From contig CAOKRC010000021.1 of NCBI GenBank assembly GCA_948471035.1, positions 1 to 34,461 of the forward strand: 34,461 nt of DNA. The letters are read 5' to 3'. The position numbers and the translations under genes were made by a program. The notes below the pieces were generated by a model. The model was not told where the DNA came from, searched no databases, and saw nothing but the letters and a program-made list of their open reading frames with translations. The stretch is from an uncultured Clostridium sp. (GTDB taxonomy: Bacteria; Bacillota; Clostridia; TANB77; CAG-508). Within the stretch, counting starts at the first letter, position 1, and every line of letters starts with the position of its first letter. This document shows positions 7,143 to 29,577 of the stretch, piece after piece.

Positions 7143-8075
7143 ATGGCTAATAGGAGAATGTTTAGCAAAAAAATATGTAGATCAGCTAAATTCTTGAAAA
7201 TGCCTTCAGAATCTCACAAACTTTATTTGCATTTAATATTAGATGCAGATGATGATGGTGTTGTAGAAGCATATAGTGTTATGCAAGCAGTTGGAGTAGA
7301 GGAACAATACTTTGATATATTAGTAGAAAAAGGATATGTTAAAGTTTTAAATGATGATTTAGTCTCTTACATAATAGACTGGAGAGAGCATAATGTTATT
7401 AGAGCAGATAGAAAAGTAGATAGCATTTATAAGGATTTGCTATTAAAAGCAATACCAGGAATAAAATTGGTTGAACCAAAAAAGAGAGCAACTAGTAAAA
7501 AGAAAGAATCTTCAGAACAAGAAGGACAGTCAAATGACAGCCAAATGGAAGTCAATGGACAGACAAATGACAGTCCAAAGGCAGACAATCGACAGACAGA
7601 TGACAGACAAATGACTGACATTGGACAGCATAAGATAAGTCAAGACAATATAAGTCAAGATAAGTTAGAAAAAGAAAATTTAAAAAAAGAAAATATAGAA
7701 GAAGATAATACAAGTGAAATTAGTATAGAACAAATAGAAAAAACTGAAAAAGATTATAAAAAAATAAAAATAATATTTGAAAACTCTTTAGAAGATATAA
7801 CGGAAGAAAATATTAATGAATGTATTAACTATCTTAAATGTTTTCCAATAGAACTAGTTGAGTATGCACTTATTAGAACTGGTATGATAAAAAATCCAAC
7901 ATGGCAGTACACTAAAAAAATCCTGAATAGCTGGTTAGCAAAAGGAATCAATACACTTCAACAAGTCAAGCAAGATGAAAAGGAATTTAAGAAGAATAAC
8001 AACAATAGTGAAGCAGATTCAAGTGATCCTAATGGCTTTAAAAGGAAGGGAGAAGAACTATTGAATGAAGAATGA
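7143..8075 (+). CDS. DnaD-like replisome organiser
   Basis: 310 residues. N-terminal winged-helix region (about 1-100) resembles phage replisome-organiser proteins (FSKKICRSAKFLKMPSESHK, then DADDDGVVEA). A low-complexity Gln/Asp/Ser linker (about 120-200) follows, then a DnaD C-terminal domain (about 205-275) with the signature YTKKILNSWLAKGI. DnaD proteins bind origin DNA and, with a DnaC-type loader, recruit the replicative helicase. The overlapping downstream DnaC-like gene completes the pair, so the element probably initiates its own replication. Leader AAGATTGGAGATATTAGAAA supplies the ribosome binding site. Confidence 0.85.
   Translation: MANRRMFSKKICRSAKFLKMPSESHKLYLHLILDADDDGVVEAYSVMQAVGVEEQYFDILVEKGYVKVLNDDLVSYIIDWREHNVIRADRKVDSIYKDLLLKAIPGIKLVEPKKRATSKKKESSEQEGQSNDSQMEVNGQTNDSPKADNRQTDDRQMTDIGQHKISQDNISQDKLEKENLKKENIEEDNTSEISIEQIEKTEKDYKKIKIIFENSLEDITEENINECINYLKCFPIELVEYALIRTGMIKNPTWQYTKKILNSWLAKGINTLQQVKQDEKEFKKNNNNSEADSSDPNGFKRKGEELLNEE
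7525..7650 (+). repeat. Low-complexity GACAGACAAATGACAG-type repeats in the DnaD linker
   Basis: Imperfect repeats of GGACAG / GACAGACAAATGACAG encode the Q-T-N-D-S/Q-T-D-D-R linker between the two domains. They are degenerate and coding, typical of replisome-organiser linkers that drift by slippage. Confidence 0.6.
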
Positions 8076-14481: not shown

Positions 14482-14510
14482 TTGACTTTGTAAATATTTT
14501 ATTGTAAAAT
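14482..14510 (+). promoter_or_regulatory. Promoter of the structured leader and PBECR4 gene
   Basis: TTGACT (14482-14487), 17-nt spacer, TAAAAT (14505-14510), about 50 bases after the SprT-like gene. A transcript starting near 14517 would begin just before the first leader hairpin and run through both tandem repeats into the gene at 14751. Confidence 0.75.
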
Positions 14511-14567
14511 GAATATAATAATGATAGTTGCAATTTATCTTGCATAGCAGGTGCGACTGCCACAATA

Positions 14568-14620
14568 ACCTAAAATTCAAGAAAAGGTATAGCCTTTTAG
14601 GTTGGTTAGGCAACGGAAAA
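14568..14620 (+). repeat. Structured RNA repeat, copy 1
   Basis: Stem arms AAAAGG (14582-14587) and CCTTTT (14593-14598) around loop TATAG; outer stem AACCT (14567-14571) with AGGTT (14599-14603). 45 of 53 positions are identical to copy 2, with no indels. Confidence 0.85.
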
Positions 14621-14673
14621 ACCTAAAATTCAGGCAAGAGTATAGCTCTTGGGGTTGGTTAGGCAACGGAAAA
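14621..14673 (+). repeat. Structured RNA repeat, copy 2
   Basis: Stem arms CAAGAG (14635-14640) and CTCTTG (14646-14651) around loop TATAG; outer stem AACCT (14620-14624) with GGGTT (14652-14656). Three stem pairs differ from copy 1 by changes on both arms. Confidence 0.85.
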
Positions 14674-14682
14674 ATCGCACAT

Positions 14683-14729
14683 TAAAGAGGAGGGATTATG
14701 GTACTGCGGTACGAAAATACTCCTCTTTA
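14683..14729 (+). promoter_or_regulatory. 10-bp attenuator-like hairpin before the PBECR4 gene
   Basis: TAAAGAGGAG (14683-14692) pairs perfectly with CTCCTCTTTA (14720-14729); a small GTAC/GTAC hairpin sits in the loop. It lies between the tandem repeats and the coding region. The downstream TTTATAAGTTTT is only partly U-rich, so partial termination or translational control of the AGGAGG inside the stem are both possible. Confidence 0.65.
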
Positions 14730-14739
14730 TAAGTTTTAA
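14698..14739 (+). CDS. Possible 13-codon leader peptide
   Basis: ATG at 14698 follows a full AGGAGGG binding site with 4-base spacing and reads MVLRYENTPLYKF before a TAA that overlaps the AAGGAGG of the next gene. Its own binding site is one arm of the 10-bp hairpin. Translation would open the hairpin and could couple to the downstream gene. It may be a real leader ORF or a by-product of purine-rich sequence. Confidence 0.45.
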   Translation: MVLRYENTPLYKF

Positions 14740-14750
14740 GGAGGAAAATA

Positions 14751-15470
14751 ATGAAAGGAATATCAAGACCTATAGATATATTTAATACAGTTTCTAAATG
14801 CTTAAAAGAATATGATAAGAATTTAAAAAATACAAAAGTAATGTTTGTTATAGAAAATAAAGATAGAACACTTTCAAAAGAAGAAGTTTATTTTCCTAGA
14901 TCAAGTTATAAACATTTAACTGGTGTATCAATAATAGAAAAATCAACTGGAAAAAGTTTAAATGCTTATGAATTTTATGATATTTTGAAGGATGAAAGAT
15001 TAAATTTAAAAGAATATATAATAAAAGAAAAAGATTCAACTACAGACTTGAAGCTCCAAGTATTACCTCAACTTATGAGAATAGATAGGATGGCCAATAT
15101 GTTTGGAGAGTTTTCTAACTTTAATATTTTTTTACAGACAGAGAAAATTGCAGGAAATATAAATGCTTGTATGGGATTTATAAAAGATAATGAATCAAAT
15201 ACATATATTCCTAATACATCTTTAAAAAAAGATATTAGAAATATAACAAATAATAGAAATAAGATTGTAGCAATTTTCAAAAAAGACATTACTGAAAAAT
15301 TGTATAAAAACATTACATATTTAAAACAAAGTTATCAAATTACTGATATATTGAAAAACAAAGAAATAAGTAAGACTATAGACACAAAAAACATATATTC
15401 AGCAGATAGAAATACAGATAAAAAAATATATGATTTTATTTATAAAACAAAAAAAGATGATAGTGAATGA
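14751..15470 (+). CDS. PBECR4-family nuclease-like protein
   Basis: 239 residues. The motif order matches PBECR4 (phage Barnase-EndoU-ColicinE5/D-RelE-like nuclease 4) proteins of Firmicute mobile elements: YFPRSSYKHLTGV (about 47-59, with His55), KIAGNINACMGFIKD (132-146) and YIPNTSLKKDIRN (152-164), then IVAIFKKDITEKLY (172-185). Family members are proposed metal-independent RNases, partly by computational prediction. Its own promoter, structured tandem-repeat leader and terminator make it a self-contained unit. TTTTAAGGAGGAAAATA gives a strong start. It could be the toxin of a type III-like toxin-antitoxin pair or a riboregulated nuclease. The C-terminal 50 residues are unassigned. Confidence 0.78.
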   Translation: MKGISRPIDIFNTVSKCLKEYDKNLKNTKVMFVIENKDRTLSKEEVYFPRSSYKHLTGVSIIEKSTGKSLNAYEFYDILKDERLNLKEYIIKEKDSTTDLKLQVLPQLMRIDRMANMFGEFSNFNIFLQTEKIAGNINACMGFIKDNESNTYIPNTSLKKDIRNITNNRNKIVAIFKKDITEKLYKNITYLKQSYQITDILKNKEISKTIDTKNIYSADRNTDKKIYDFIYKTKKDDSE

Positions 15471-15511
15471 ATATTTGATTAAATTAAAATTTTGTTATAT
15501 TTTTTGTCAAT

Positions 15512-15547
15512 AAAGGCAACTAACCGATAAATGTGCTAGTTGCCTTT
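15512..15547 (+). terminator. Rho-independent terminator after the PBECR4 gene
   Basis: Perfect 11-bp stem AAAGGCAACTA / TAGTTGCCTTT with a 14-nt loop, followed by GTTTATT. It closes the PBECR4 unit. Confidence 0.8.
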
Positions 15548-15569
15548 GTTTATTATAAAAAGAAAAGAC

Positions 15570-19009: not shown

Positions 19010-19834
19010 ATGAAAACAAAATTAAAAGAAATAACAATTAATAAAGCACACGAGCTATATGGAAATCCGTTACCAAAAGAAATACAAGAAAGAATGGAGC
19101 TAGAATTAAACTGGATTATGGAACATGATGCAGATATAGTATATCTTTTGGCAAAAGAATTAGTAAAAAAAGCCAATGAAAAAGGATATTTAGTAGGGTA
19201 TAGAGGAAATATCGGTAGCTCATATATTGCATATATATTAGGAATAACAAAAATTAATCCATTACCAAAACAATATGAAGGATTTAATATTATGTTTGAG
19301 AATGTAACAGATATAAAATTATGTGTAGCTTCTGAACATTATGATGAGATTTGCAAGGAATGTTCAAATATTTTGAAAAATGAAGATGAAATAATTATAA
19401 AAGAACAAAAGCAAGGTATAATTAAAAAAAATTTGATACAAACAAAAGAAGGAAAGCAAATAGGAAATATTGAAATACAGACAAGAAGTTTACTTAGTAT
19501 ATTAGAAGAATTAGAAAAAGTAACCAGCTTTTCACAAAATCAAATTAAGATAGAAGATGACATTACAAGTATAGGAGAGTTTCTAATAAAACACGAATTA
19601 TTTACAGGTGTAGACATAATAAAGTTTGTCGATGTATTACAAACAGCACAATTATACACATTTGAAGATTTAGTAGTATTTTTAGAAGTGCTTTATTACC
19701 AAAAAGATTGTGTATTTTCAATAGCACATTTTATAGACCAGGCATTGCTTATTTATAAAATAGGTTGGTATGGAGTAAAATATCCCAAAGAATATGAAAA
19801 AGTAGAGAAACAAATTATTAAAAATGAGGTTTAA
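19010..19834 (+). CDS. Catalytically degenerate PolC-like protein
   Basis: 274 residues. Residues about 12-85 (HELYGNPLPKEIQERMELEL, then DGY/KGYLVGYRGNIGSS-type segment) match the PolC palm and fingers start, and align with the mini-PolC at 23600-25901 (YNIYGNPLPIEVEERLNIEL and GYIVGNRGSVASS). Later segments also align by eye: TDIKLCVASEHY against PDIDLNFAREYQ, SILEELEKVTS against TILHKLKILTG, YTFEDLV against TTFNDLI, and IGWYGVKYPKEY against the FKVHYP region. The second catalytic Asp is Lys here and the body is shortened, so it should not polymerise DNA. It may regulate or partner the second copy, or be a remnant. GAATAGGAGGAAAGAAT sets the start. Confidence 0.65.
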   Translation: MKTKLKEITINKAHELYGNPLPKEIQERMELELNWIMEHDADIVYLLAKELVKKANEKGYLVGYRGNIGSSYIAYILGITKINPLPKQYEGFNIMFENVTDIKLCVASEHYDEICKECSNILKNEDEIIIKEQKQGIIKKNLIQTKEGKQIGNIEIQTRSLLSILEELEKVTSFSQNQIKIEDDITSIGEFLIKHELFTGVDIIKFVDVLQTAQLYTFEDLVVFLEVLYYQKDCVFSIAHFIDQALLIYKIGWYGVKYPKEYEKVEKQIIKNEV

Positions 19835-23599: not shown

Positions 23600-25901
23600 A
23601 TGGAAAGAATTGAATTACATTTACATACAAATATGAGCAAAATGGATGGAGTTACAAAATGCAAAGGTTATATAGAAAAAGCAAAAGAATATAAAATGAC
23701 AGCATTAGCAATAACTGATCATCGGAGCAGTACAAGCATTTCCAGAAACACAAAAATATTTAGAAAAAATTGGAGATAATGAATTTAAGATATTGTATGG
23801 AATGGAAGGATATTATGCACCTAGTAATGATATAATGGGAAAAATATACCATATAAGTATTTTAGTAAAAAATAAAACTGGACTTAAAAACTTATATAAA
23901 ATAGTTTCTATTTCAAATTTAGATTATTTCTATAAAAAACCTATAATTTTAAAAAAAGTGTTAGAAGAAAACAGTGAAGGATTACTTATAGGAAGTGCTT
24001 GCAATAAGGGAGAACTATATCAAGCTATGATTGAAAATAAAGTGGATGAAGAACTTGAACAAATTGCAAAAGAATATGATTATTTAGAAATACAACCAAT
24101 AGGCAATAATTATGATTTAATTAGAAATGGCAAGGTAAAAGATGAAAAAGCATTACAAGATATAAATATTAAAATAGAGGAATTAGGAACAAAGTTAAAT
24201 AAATTAGTTGTTGCAACATCAGATGTTCACTTTATGAATAAAGAAGATGCAGTATATAGAAGAATATTACAAGCAGAAATAGGTTATGAAGATGTAGATG
24301 AACAACCACCATTATATTTTAGAACCACAGAAGAAATGCTAAAAGAATTTGAATATTTAGGGAAAGACAAGGCATATGAGGTAGTAGTAACTAATACCAA
24401 TAAAATAGCAAATATATGTGAAAAGGTTAAACCAATATCAAATGAGAAATGTTATCCATATATTGAAAATAGTGAACTGGAGATTAAAGAACTAGCTTAT
24501 AAAGGTGCATATAATATATATGGAAATCCCTTACCAATAGAAGTAGAAGAAAGATTAAATATAGAATTAAACTCAATAACAGAAAATAATTTTTCTACAC
24601 TATATATGATAGCTCAAAAATTAGTACAAAAATCAAATTCAGATGGATATATTGTAGGAAATAGAGGTTCAGTTGCTTCATCACTTGTAGCATATTGTAT
24701 TGGAATAACAGAAGTAGATCCTATTAAATATAATATACCATTTGAAACATTTGCAGGTTTTAATGGAGAAAAAGAACCAGACATTGATTTGAATTTTGCA
24801 AGAGAATATCAAGCTAAAGCACAAGAAACCGTAAAGGAAATATTAGAAGGAAGTGTAGTAGTTAAGGCTGGAACAATTGGAACAATAGCAGAAAAAACAG
24901 CTTATGAATATGTAAAACAATATTACGAAGATAAAGATATAAAACCTAGTAAAGAAGAAATACAAAGACTTACAGAAGGGCTTGTAGGAATTAAAAGAAC
25001 AACAGGGCAACATCCAGGAAGAGTTATAGTAGTTACAAAAAATAGAGAAATATATGAATTTTGCCCAATACAATATTTATCAGATGACCAAAATTCTGAT
25101 ATTATAACAACACATTTTGATTATCATTCAATAGATAAAAATTTACTAAATTTAGATATATTAGCACATGATACTCCAACTATATTACATAAATTAAAGA
25201 TATTAACAGGAATTGAACCAATAACGATAGATTTAGAAGATAAAGATACAATGGAAATGATATGTACAGCAAACACACTAGCAATTCCTGAATTTGGCAC
25301 AAAATTTGTTAGAAATATAATTTTAGAAACTAAACCTACTACATTTAATGACTTAATAAAAATATCTGGATTAGCACATGGTACAAATGTATGGAAAAAT
25401 AATGCAGAAGATTTAATAAAAAGTGGAATAGCAACATTAAAAGAAATAATTGCTTTTAGAGATGATATAATGAATGATTTAATACAAGTTGGAATTGAAT
25501 CTAAAATAGCATTTGAAATTATGGAAAAAGTACGTAGAGGAAAAGGACTAAGTAAGGAACAAGAAGATTTAATGAGAAAAAATAATATACCTGATTGGTA
25601 TATAGAATCTTGTAAAAAAATCATGTATATGTTTCCAAAAGCACATGCTACATCCTACGTAATAAATGATTTCAGAATGGCTTGGTACAAAGTACATTAT
25701 TCAGAAGCATTTTATAAAGTATATTTTGAAACGATAGATGATATAGATAAAACAATATTAAATAGTAAAGAAAAGGTATTAGATAAGTTACAAAAATTAG
25801 AAGAAATATTAAATAAAGAAACAGATAATTATAAGATAAAAGAAAAAATAGAAGATTATAAAATTGCCTTAGAAATGCTTGATAGGAATATAAGTATTTG
25901 A
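23600..25901 (+). pseudogene. Mini-PolC (PHP plus palm/fingers, no exonuclease), frameshifted
   Basis: An extra C at 23723 breaks the frame after ALAITDH; removing it gives DHGAVQAFPETQKYLEKIG and one frame to 25901 (766 residues). The part after the shift is open from about 23760. PolC features: PHP start ELHLHTNMS (residue 5 on), YHISILVKNKTGLKNLYK, SACNKGEL, ATSDVHF, GNRGSVASS, catalytic PDIDLNF, GTIGTIAEKTAY, TTGQHPG, LNLDILAHD, IPEFGT, SGLAHGT, YMFPKAHA. Missing: the N-terminal OB region, the exonuclease inserted in the PHP domain, the cysteine zinc module before DIPFETF, and about 100 C-terminal residues. Normal PolC has about 1440 residues. If the frameshift is a sequencing error, it is a complete minimal, proofreading-less polymerase. 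AATAAGGAGGAATAAAA sets the start. Confidence 0.85.
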
Positions 25902-28348: not shown

Positions 28349-29195
28349 GTGCGCCCAGCTAAGGGTAAACAGTCTAGCAAGTGGAAATCTTGCTTAGTCA
28401 AGGTCTAACCAACCAACTAATAGCGAGTCTTGTGCTTATGATAGTAATATTATGAGTAAAGCGTAGACAGCAAGAAGACAGGGTTAAAAGGCAGTTCAGC
28501 CCCGAAATGTTGTACGAATTAGAAGGCAGATGTATTTATTGTTGCAGAATGCAATATTTGAATATTCGTTAAGGTGAGAATATTCAAACTTCTACGGGGT
28601 CTATAGTGCCAATCATGTTTTACACAGAGTGTTTGTCAACTGGGGAGAGCCTAATATTTCTTGTAAAATACAAGTATGGTAAACAACAATAAAACGAAGA
28701 ATACCAAAAGAATGTTAGGCAGTCGGATAAGTTCGTAGTAGTGATGAAGTTTCTGTAATGGAAATGGAGCGAAGGGACTTACATAATAACGGTCTTACTG
28801 AGGAAACATTATCTGTACTCAGGGACAGGAGGAATAATGGAAACAAAATTAGAAAGAATAGCAGACAAATCAAGAAATGAAAAACGACCAATATTTACAT
28901 CATTGTATCACTTAATCAACGAAGAACTGCTAAAAGAGTGTCATAAAGAATTAGACGGGAGTAAAGCAGTTGGAATTGATAATGTAAGCAAGAAAGAATA
29001 TGCAGAAAATCTAGACGAAAATATTAGAGACCTAGTAGTAAGATTAAAGAATAAAGCATATAAACCAGCACCATCTCTTAGAGTATATATACCAAAAGGG
29101 AATGGTAAAATGCGACCACTAGGAATATCGATATACGAAGACAAAATAGTACAATTAGCATTAAAGAAAATATTAGAAGCAATATATGAGCCAAA
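28349..29195 (+). mobile_element. Group II intron, 3'-truncated
   Basis: The 5' end is GTGCGCCCAGCTAAGGG, the standard bacterial group II start, and 488 bases of structured RNA (domains I-III) precede the maturase/RT start at 28837. The RT is cut within its early RT motifs; the rest of the RT, domain V/VI and the 3' splice site are absent downstream. The intron therefore cannot splice or move on its own. The right junction, near 29190-29200, is where RT homology stops. Confidence 0.85.
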
Positions 29196-29577
29196 TCTTG
29201 ATAAAAATCGTTATGCTTTTACTATAAAACCAAAGTCAAAAGAATTAAGCGAATACACAGCTTTAGAATTAGAATTTCTAGTAGAACAAAATATTTTAAA
29301 ACAAAAAGGTATAAAAGATCCAGTTTTTACACTAGAACAAAAATATCTTGATAAGTATTTAGAGAAAAAATGGGAACAATTAGAAGATATTCCATTTAAA
29401 GAAAAAAATGGCCAACAAATATTAGATGACAATTATTGGGATTTTGAAAAAGGTTATGTTAGCAATGAAGATATATGGCACTATTTTGATGAAAATCATT
29501 CTAAAGGAGTACACTATTTATTATATGAAATGGAAGAAAATAACAGTAACACAGTTGAGGAAGAAGAAACTCTATAA
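28837..29577 (+). CDS. Chimeric ORF: group II RT N-terminus fused to a cargo-gene tail
   Basis: 246 residues. Residues 1-118 are a group II intron reverse transcriptase N-terminus (SLYHLINEELL, ELDGSKAVGIDNV, VYIPKGNGKMRPLGIS, IVQLALKKILEAIYEP), in the style of bacterial class D-type enzymes. From about residue 119 (NLDKNRYAFTIKP) the sequence is unrelated to RT: no YGFRP, YADD or maturase motif follows. The tail (WDFEKGYVSNEDIWHYFDEN, then KGVHYLLYE and a Glu-rich end) looks like the C-terminus of an element accessory protein. A deletion fused the two in frame. GACAGGAGGAATA precedes the ATG. RT activity is not possible. Confidence 0.85.
   Translation: METKLERIADKSRNEKRPIFTSLYHLINEELLKECHKELDGSKAVGIDNVSKKEYAENLDENIRDLVVRLKNKAYKPAPSLRVYIPKGNGKMRPLGISIYEDKIVQLALKKILEAIYEPNLDKNRYAFTIKPKSKELSEYTALELEFLVEQNILKQKGIKDPVFTLEQKYLDKYLEKKWEQLEDIPFKEKNGQQILDDNYWDFEKGYVSNEDIWHYFDENHSKGVHYLLYEMEENNSNTVEEEETL

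Follow-up and report, generated by a model that had tools for sequence, protein, structure and literature searches.

Tandem RNA repeats in front of a PBECR4-family nuclease gene from an uncultured Clostridium: a candidate type III-like toxin–antitoxin operon

Analysis of a 34,461-nucleotide stretch of DNA from an uncultured Clostridium sp. (contig CAOKRC010000021.1, hereafter the window) reveals a unit in which two 53-nt tandem RNA repeats and a hairpin precede the gene of a predicted RNase of the PBECR4 family (Table 1). We consider that this unit is probably a type III-like toxin–antitoxin operon, combining a new toxin family with one of several RNA antitoxin designs. Judged from sequence comparison, a type III-like system is the best reading of the layout, the repeats, the pseudoknots, the co-divergence of RNA and protein, and the pattern of gene loss. 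The original prediction, made from the window alone, had proposed such a candidate with PBECR4 in the toxin position, and comparison supports it: diverged homologues are preceded by the same succession of promoter-like site, repeats and hairpin, and further support comes from covarying pseudoknots, from an RNA type that tracks the protein tree, and from RNA that persists where the PBECR4 gene is broken. The architecture, the covariation, the linkage of RNA and gene, and their co-divergence were established by comparing sequences.

Table 1. Features of the PBECR4 unit, in window coordinates
Feature	Position	Strand	Basis or remark
Promoter-like site TTGACT-17-TAAAAT	14482–14510	+	consensus scan, 10/12 matches
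Leader module 0: stem GCAG/CTGC, loop L0 GTGCGA (14551–14556)	14547–14560	+	L0 complementary to x3
Repeat 1, 53 nt	14568–14620	+	unit-model match 22.8 bits, E 0.012; covariation in relatives
Repeat 1: strand x1 CCTAA; hairpin	14569–14573; 14582–14587/14593–14598	+	
Repeat 1: stem GTTG/CAAC; loop L1 TTAGG; A-rich linker	14601–14604/14611–14614; 14606–14610	+	
Repeat 2, 53 nt	14621–14673	+	unit-model match 29.4 bits, E 0.00029
Repeat 2: strand x2 CCTAA; hairpin	14622–14626; 14635–14640/14646–14651	+	
Repeat 2: stem GTTG/CAAC; loop L2 TTAGG; A-rich linker	14654–14657/14664–14667; 14659–14663	+	
Strand x3 TCGCAC	14675–14680	+	complementary to L0; would close the RNA around both repeats
RNA-to-gene hairpin with an outer stem of 10 bp and a UGCG loop, presumed to attenuate transcription	14683–14729	+	
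Ribosome-binding site AAGGAGG	14738–14744	+	read from sequence
Gene of the presumed toxin, a predicted RNase of the PBECR4 family with 239 aa	14751–15470	+	PF18813, E 3.6e-29
Terminator-like hairpin 3' of gene, 11 pairs (15512–15522/15537–15547)	15512–15549	+	by eye

As predicted, the two repeats align without insertions or deletions (45 of 53 positions identical), and their tandem score at a period of 53 is 38.4; 1000 shuffles that preserve dinucleotides average 8.8 (sd 1.3) and reach 17.2 at most. A chance origin is unlikely. Among 224 other stretches of the window, one place scores slightly above the leader (39.0, period 33, two overlapping stretches at 7351–7800), and this repeat lies inside an open reading frame (7143–8075). 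Six of the eight differences between the repeats form three compensated pairs in one stem (14582/14598, A-U to C-G; 14585/14595, A-U to G-C; 14586/14594, G-C to A-U), and the complementarity of L0 and x3, which flank both repeats, was likewise recovered as originally described; the further claim that one difference keeps a G-U pair found no confirmation in the remaining two (14580 and 14599). The predicted promoter stands as far as its match to the consensus goes, but such sites are no commoner in the window than in shuffles (5 vs. 9.3 by the consensus scan); AT-rich sites resembling it were seen by eye in relatives. The predicted 10-bp hairpin ahead of the gene is stable (folding energy −20.3 kcal/mol, z −4.1), but its U-run is weak and the terminator scan gives no call; terminator-like hairpins in the same place in relatives, for example L015, look better by eye. 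The predicted terminator behind the gene is present as a hairpin whose loop of 14 exceeds the limit of the terminator scan. A short open reading frame, MVLRYENTPLYKF (14698–14739), lies in the attenuator hairpin, is preceded by GAGGAGG and ends at the ribosome-binding site of PBECR4; the idea that it encodes a leader peptide was dropped, relatives keeping the hairpin and not the peptide (by eye). Frames loosely similar to it occur in loci L001, L020 and L025, and in L066 the corresponding frame continues into PBECR4. None of 4227 Rfam families, the AbiF RNA RF03085 included, matches the window leader at gathering score; the match to a known riboswitch class that the original prediction had named as counting against it was thus not found. 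At E-values up to 10 the sole Rfam match near the leader is RAGATH-30, on the opposite strand (13.7 bits vs. 59.5), and the covariance model of the drum RNA (RF02958) leaves the window RNA unmatched at both levels.

Comparison with relatives gives insight into the fold. Over 13 units, all five pairs of the hairpin are changed on both sides (98.5% paired), with a covariation score of 0.533 vs. 0.163 after shuffling, and sliding the partners abolishes the signal. The stem S1 (GTTG/CAAC) is invariant in these units, and reads GATTG/CAATC, GTCG/CGAC, GTCT/AGAC or GCTG/CAGC elsewhere. Covariation, which is the evidence here, predicts that the unit folds as an H-type pseudoknot. One correction to the original prediction is that selection does not point to a self-contained 53-nt unit, since the conserved pseudoknot pairs link neighbouring units in swapped order. 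Whereas plain tandem pseudoknots would pair L0 with x1, L1 with x2 and L2 with x3, here the middle module alone does so, and the first and last modules exchange strands (L0–x3 and L2–x1). The elements compared were delimited by eye, because whole-leader MAFFT alignments misplace some strands, and the same elements served every rival pairing; the three-repeat locus L001, near-duplicates of parsed loci, and the too diverged L099, L101 and L103 were excluded. In 21 loci, the L0–x3 complementarity sums to 115.5, vs. a permutation mean of 77.8 (sd 3.9, maximum 93 in 2000 permutations), and the 16 informative loci all prefer L1–x2 plus L2–x1 over pairing within the unit. Eight further loci, of which seven lack PBECR4 and one retains a remnant of it, show the swapped pairing in seven of seven informative cases. 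When all six arrangements are compared in the 29 two-repeat loci, which are not independent and comprise 19 distinct L1/x2/L2/x1 sets and 20 distinct L0/x3 pairs, a unique best arrangement exists in 23 and is L0–x3, L1–x2, L2–x1 in every one; in the remaining six, this arrangement ties with one other. The window is among the ties because its two repeats have identical loop and strand. The L1–x2 pairing is accompanied by flanking S1 in all 23 informative loci, with one S1 mismatch (L098), and the middle module is composed of S1 (4–5 bp), a one-base pseudoknot loop L1, S2 (4–5 bp) and an A-rich pseudoknot loop L2.

The description of the gene as PBECR4-like was borne out, as the window protein matches PF18813 over residues 14–193 with 102.9 bits (cut-off 27). 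Its His55 and Thr156 fall in family-conserved columns, occupied, among PBECR4 alignment rows with a letter, by His in 37 of 37 and by Thr or Ser in 36 of 37. The available part of PMC5512222 describes a His and a C-terminal Thr/Ser as the active site of PBECR domains, and we infer that these are the columns meant there; the domain match and the His plus Thr/Ser pair are what the window protein has in common with the PBECR4/phage-BECR nucleases. A Pfam scan of nine members found PF18813 in all nine and no other family better than E 0.03, and identity to the window protein ranges from 27 to 46% among eight PBECR4 proteins compared. Aligned with hhalign, the two PBECR4 groups give a probability of 96 with each other, and 0.2 and 0.3 with seven ToxN proteins, a set that covers ToxN and neither CptN nor TenpN; no solved structure matches either group below E 0.06. 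By toxin homology, the system is not a member of the ToxIN family. In the parts of the literature available, PMC5512222 presents PBECR proteins as polyvalent and solo and mentions no RNA partner, PMC8040213 reports candidate RNAs before ToxN and none before PBECR, and the open-access texts searched mention PBECR in PMC5512222 and a PBECR3 study, without the name PBECR4.

Seven of 55 genomes, that of the window among them, contain PF18813, and the same seven are 7 of 22 within the genus. In the class, PF18813 occurs in 29 of 391 genomes, at 31 places, one of which (G069:C39) had its upstream sequence outside the leader comparison. All nine distinct PBECR4 places of the genus carry two or three tandem repeats upstream, different in sequence and alike in layout. 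A genome scan yielded 18 loci, eight of them already in the set, and the other ten also have tandem repeats (L070 and L080 included). The same leader architecture precedes diverged PBECR4 genes in the genus, in Lachnospiraceae, Butyrivibrio and other Clostridia, and at two PBECR4 copies of the Erysipelothrix phage phi1605, one of them with an internal stop. Among phages, the window protein matches one record and a drum-type PBECR4 protein none; among plasmids neither the window DNA nor the window protein has a match; in viral contigs an exact 17-base pattern gave nothing and a protein scan gave 15 pattern matches, with no relative among them.

Within the class sample, the 52-nt tandem leader stands at eight places (window included) and drum at gathering score at 11. 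Four more places have borderline or sub-threshold drum (L037, 43 vs. 43; L040, 41.6; L031, 34.4; L032, 34.2), and the leader of L033 resembles that of L032 by eye, the drum model being silent even at E-values up to 10. Five places have other leaders: two repeats of about 33 nt each, foldable as H-type pseudoknots by eye, in L034 and L035, and leaders of unassigned type with terminator-like hairpins (by eye) in L021, L036 and L038. The 33-nt repeats look by eye like minimal ToxI-sized H-type pseudoknots, and L035 has a sub-threshold GP20-b match. No leader was seen at L023, whose gene is 5'-truncated and lacks the first 15 profile positions. With full length judged from open reading frames, all 27 apparently full-length PBECR4 genes of the class sample have a leader: tandem in seven, drum in 11, borderline or lower-scoring drum in three (L037, L031, L032), that of L033, and another leader in five, including the three of unassigned type. 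The leader type of the window is one of at least three in the PBECR4 family. A refuting condition named in the original prediction, PBECR4 genes lacking this leader together with the leader before unrelated genes, was not borne out in the form given. PBECR4 genes without this leader exist, but they have other leaders, mostly drum. On a tree of 38 PBECR4 proteins (18 tandem, 16 drum including L031–L033 and L037 scored as such, and 4 other, with L034 absent and several long branches unsure), the leader type changes twice each for tandem and for drum, compared with means of 12.9 and 12.4 after shuffling (none of 500 as low). On these proteins, the RNA type follows the PBECR4 tree.

Drum characterizes the other main PBECR4 branch, where it takes the leader position with a terminator-like hairpin ahead of the gene. 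Both RNAs occupy the same position ahead of PBECR4, but drum is not tandem, and the tandem-unit model found no match in the drum loci searched. PBECR4 also occurs on 20 Enterococcus and Streptococcus plasmid records, with drum upstream in three of three loci checked; on the Enterococcus faecalis plasmid pEFM9-2 (L134), drum, PBECR4 and an AbiH gene follow in a row. Of 381 genomes of the class sample, 18 contain drum, at 23 places in total, with PBECR4 directly downstream at 12 (that of G219 partial), a remnant start at two (by eye), the contig end at one and no PBECR4 at eight, four of these eight in genome G271. In the available parts of the respective papers, drum appears as the carrier of a k-turn (PMC8191799) and with a helix extension (PMC7657543); a function for it was not found stated in the open-access literature as far as available, which does not cover its presumed first description, where a link to the gene may be given.

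The tandem-unit model matched 22 times in the 381 class genomes, at 16 loci of 14 genomes. It misses diverged copies, as is seen from the repeats of the window itself, which fall under both whole-genome search thresholds. Downstream of these 16 loci, PBECR4 is intact in five, has an internal stop in one, is a remnant start in one, and was not recognised in nine; in the genus, six of seven loci have PBECR4 (two broken) and one does not. Tandem repeats are retained beside a broken or remnant PBECR4 in five loci (L008, L009, L039, L075, L096), a broken-gene count that draft-assembly frameshifts may inflate. As for the other half of the refuting condition, the leader before unrelated genes, copies without PBECR4 do exist, but the 11 tandem loci without intact PBECR4 that were looked at have no common downstream gene. 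Genome G280 has three tandem RNAs (L107, L113 and L115, the first two 478 bases apart) that keep the swapped pairing, have terminator-like hairpins and are not followed by PBECR4. Since copies without PBECR4 occur (9 of 16 tandem, 8 of 23 drum), the RNAs may work in trans or serve some other purpose.

Among known systems, CptIN of Eubacterium rectale likewise has two repeats ahead of a toxin gene. According to the available part of PMC4627078, CptI is an H-type pseudoknot whose L1 is a single base (G) and whose L2 is A-rich, in a complex of two RNAs and two toxins, and the middle module of the window-type RNA fits this description (PMC4627078 and PMC5086642, as far as available). The CptI repeat, however, has 45 nt in that text vs. 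about 49–65 nt with an extra hairpin in the PBECR4 tandem RNA; the latter exchanges strands between two modules, unlike CptI, a topology not described for antitoxins in the available type III literature searched; and its toxin is a PBECR4 protein, for which profile comparison with seven ToxN proteins shows no relation. AbiF-RCd22 resembles the window system in that a two-copy ncRNA and a terminator precede the gene of a toxin that does not belong to the ToxN family; its RNA neutralises the toxin by direct binding, and it is a precedent for an RNA antitoxin paired with a non-ToxN toxin (available part of PMC12373285), although both protein family (Abi_2) and RNA differ from those described here. 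As a yardstick, the tandem test was applied to 10 of 16 ToxN loci, and seven of the ten score over 16, with periods of 36–39. The genome of the window has three ToxN matches (G000:C9, C5, C12); its ToxN loci L117 and L129 have 36–39 nt tandem repeats upstream, and the frame of L129 reaches 359 aa.

If the type III-like reading is right, one promoter would give a structured RNA in which the leader and the two repeats make up three pseudoknot modules, and read-through of the hairpin would give a smaller amount of mRNA for the PBECR4 endoribonuclease, which the RNA would bind and block until it runs short, for example when the element is lost or a phage takes over. L1 would pair with x2 just after it in an H-type pseudoknot whose first loop is a single base and whose second is A-rich, and the exchanges L0–x3 and L2–x1 would close the RNA on itself. 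Toxicity of PBECR4, direct RNA binding, attenuation, and a role in element maintenance or phage defence are the inferred parts of this scheme.

The leader position, the attenuator-like hairpin and the aptamer-like tandem units would also suit a tandem riboswitch or another cis-regulatory leader, in which a ligand or stress controls read-through and the RNA does not bind the protein. We regard this as unlikely, since 52-nt tandem, 33-nt tandem and drum leaders all serve one protein family, tandem and drum split along its tree, copies without intact PBECR4 retain the swapped pairing (seven of seven informative) and, at the 11 loci looked at, share no downstream gene, and Rfam yields no match at gathering score. 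The same copies bear on autogenous control, by which PBECR4 would be a phage or element RNase, not a toxin, that binds or cuts its own leader and so limits its expression. A predicted RNase does adjoin a conserved RNA, and type III toxins likewise cleave their own RNA (PMC5086642, available part); nevertheless, repeats kept beside broken or remnant genes, and RNA copies lacking any PBECR4, are unexpected if the RNA serves the gene only, and such control seems quite improbable to us. Very doubtful is an RNA that, instead of inhibiting PBECR4, activates it or directs it against invading RNA: AbiF, a family of RNA-neutralised toxins, has been linked to the origin of Cas13 (available part of PMC12373285) and one plasmid PBECR4 adjoins an AbiH gene, but the repeats contain no variable spacer-like stretch (by eye) and many of their varying bases are self-paired.

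The type III-like reading would, if true, enlarge the small set of RNA-neutralised toxins by one family and offer a testable function for drum, which the available literature searched treats only as carrying a k-turn and as an instance of covariation. The exchange of strands, observed in 23 informative loci (all 29 loci comprise 19 distinct element sets), would be a novel way of building an RNA inhibitor, and PBECR4 on Enterococcus plasmids, in phage and in mobile DNA of Clostridia would be a candidate maintenance or phage-defence module. A broader proposal, to which we give slightly better than an even chance, is that PBECR4 represents a new superfamily of RNA-leashed toxins, without sequence relation to ToxN and with several separate antitoxin RNAs, namely drum, whose function would thereby be explained, the 33-nt pseudoknot repeats, and the strand-swapped tandem RNA, which would pre-build a closed complex, and that the nuclease-less copies are anti-addiction or anti-defence RNAs against incoming elements.

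Elsewhere in the window, positions 28384–28610 match Group II intron D1-D4-6 (157 bits), and the open reading frame at 28837–29577, without a Pfam match, starts by eye like a group II intron reverse transcriptase and then changes. Moreover, two open reading frames match DNA polymerase III alpha, one (19010–19834) with a short NTPase piece and the other (23793–25901) with a PHP-NTPase-finger piece.
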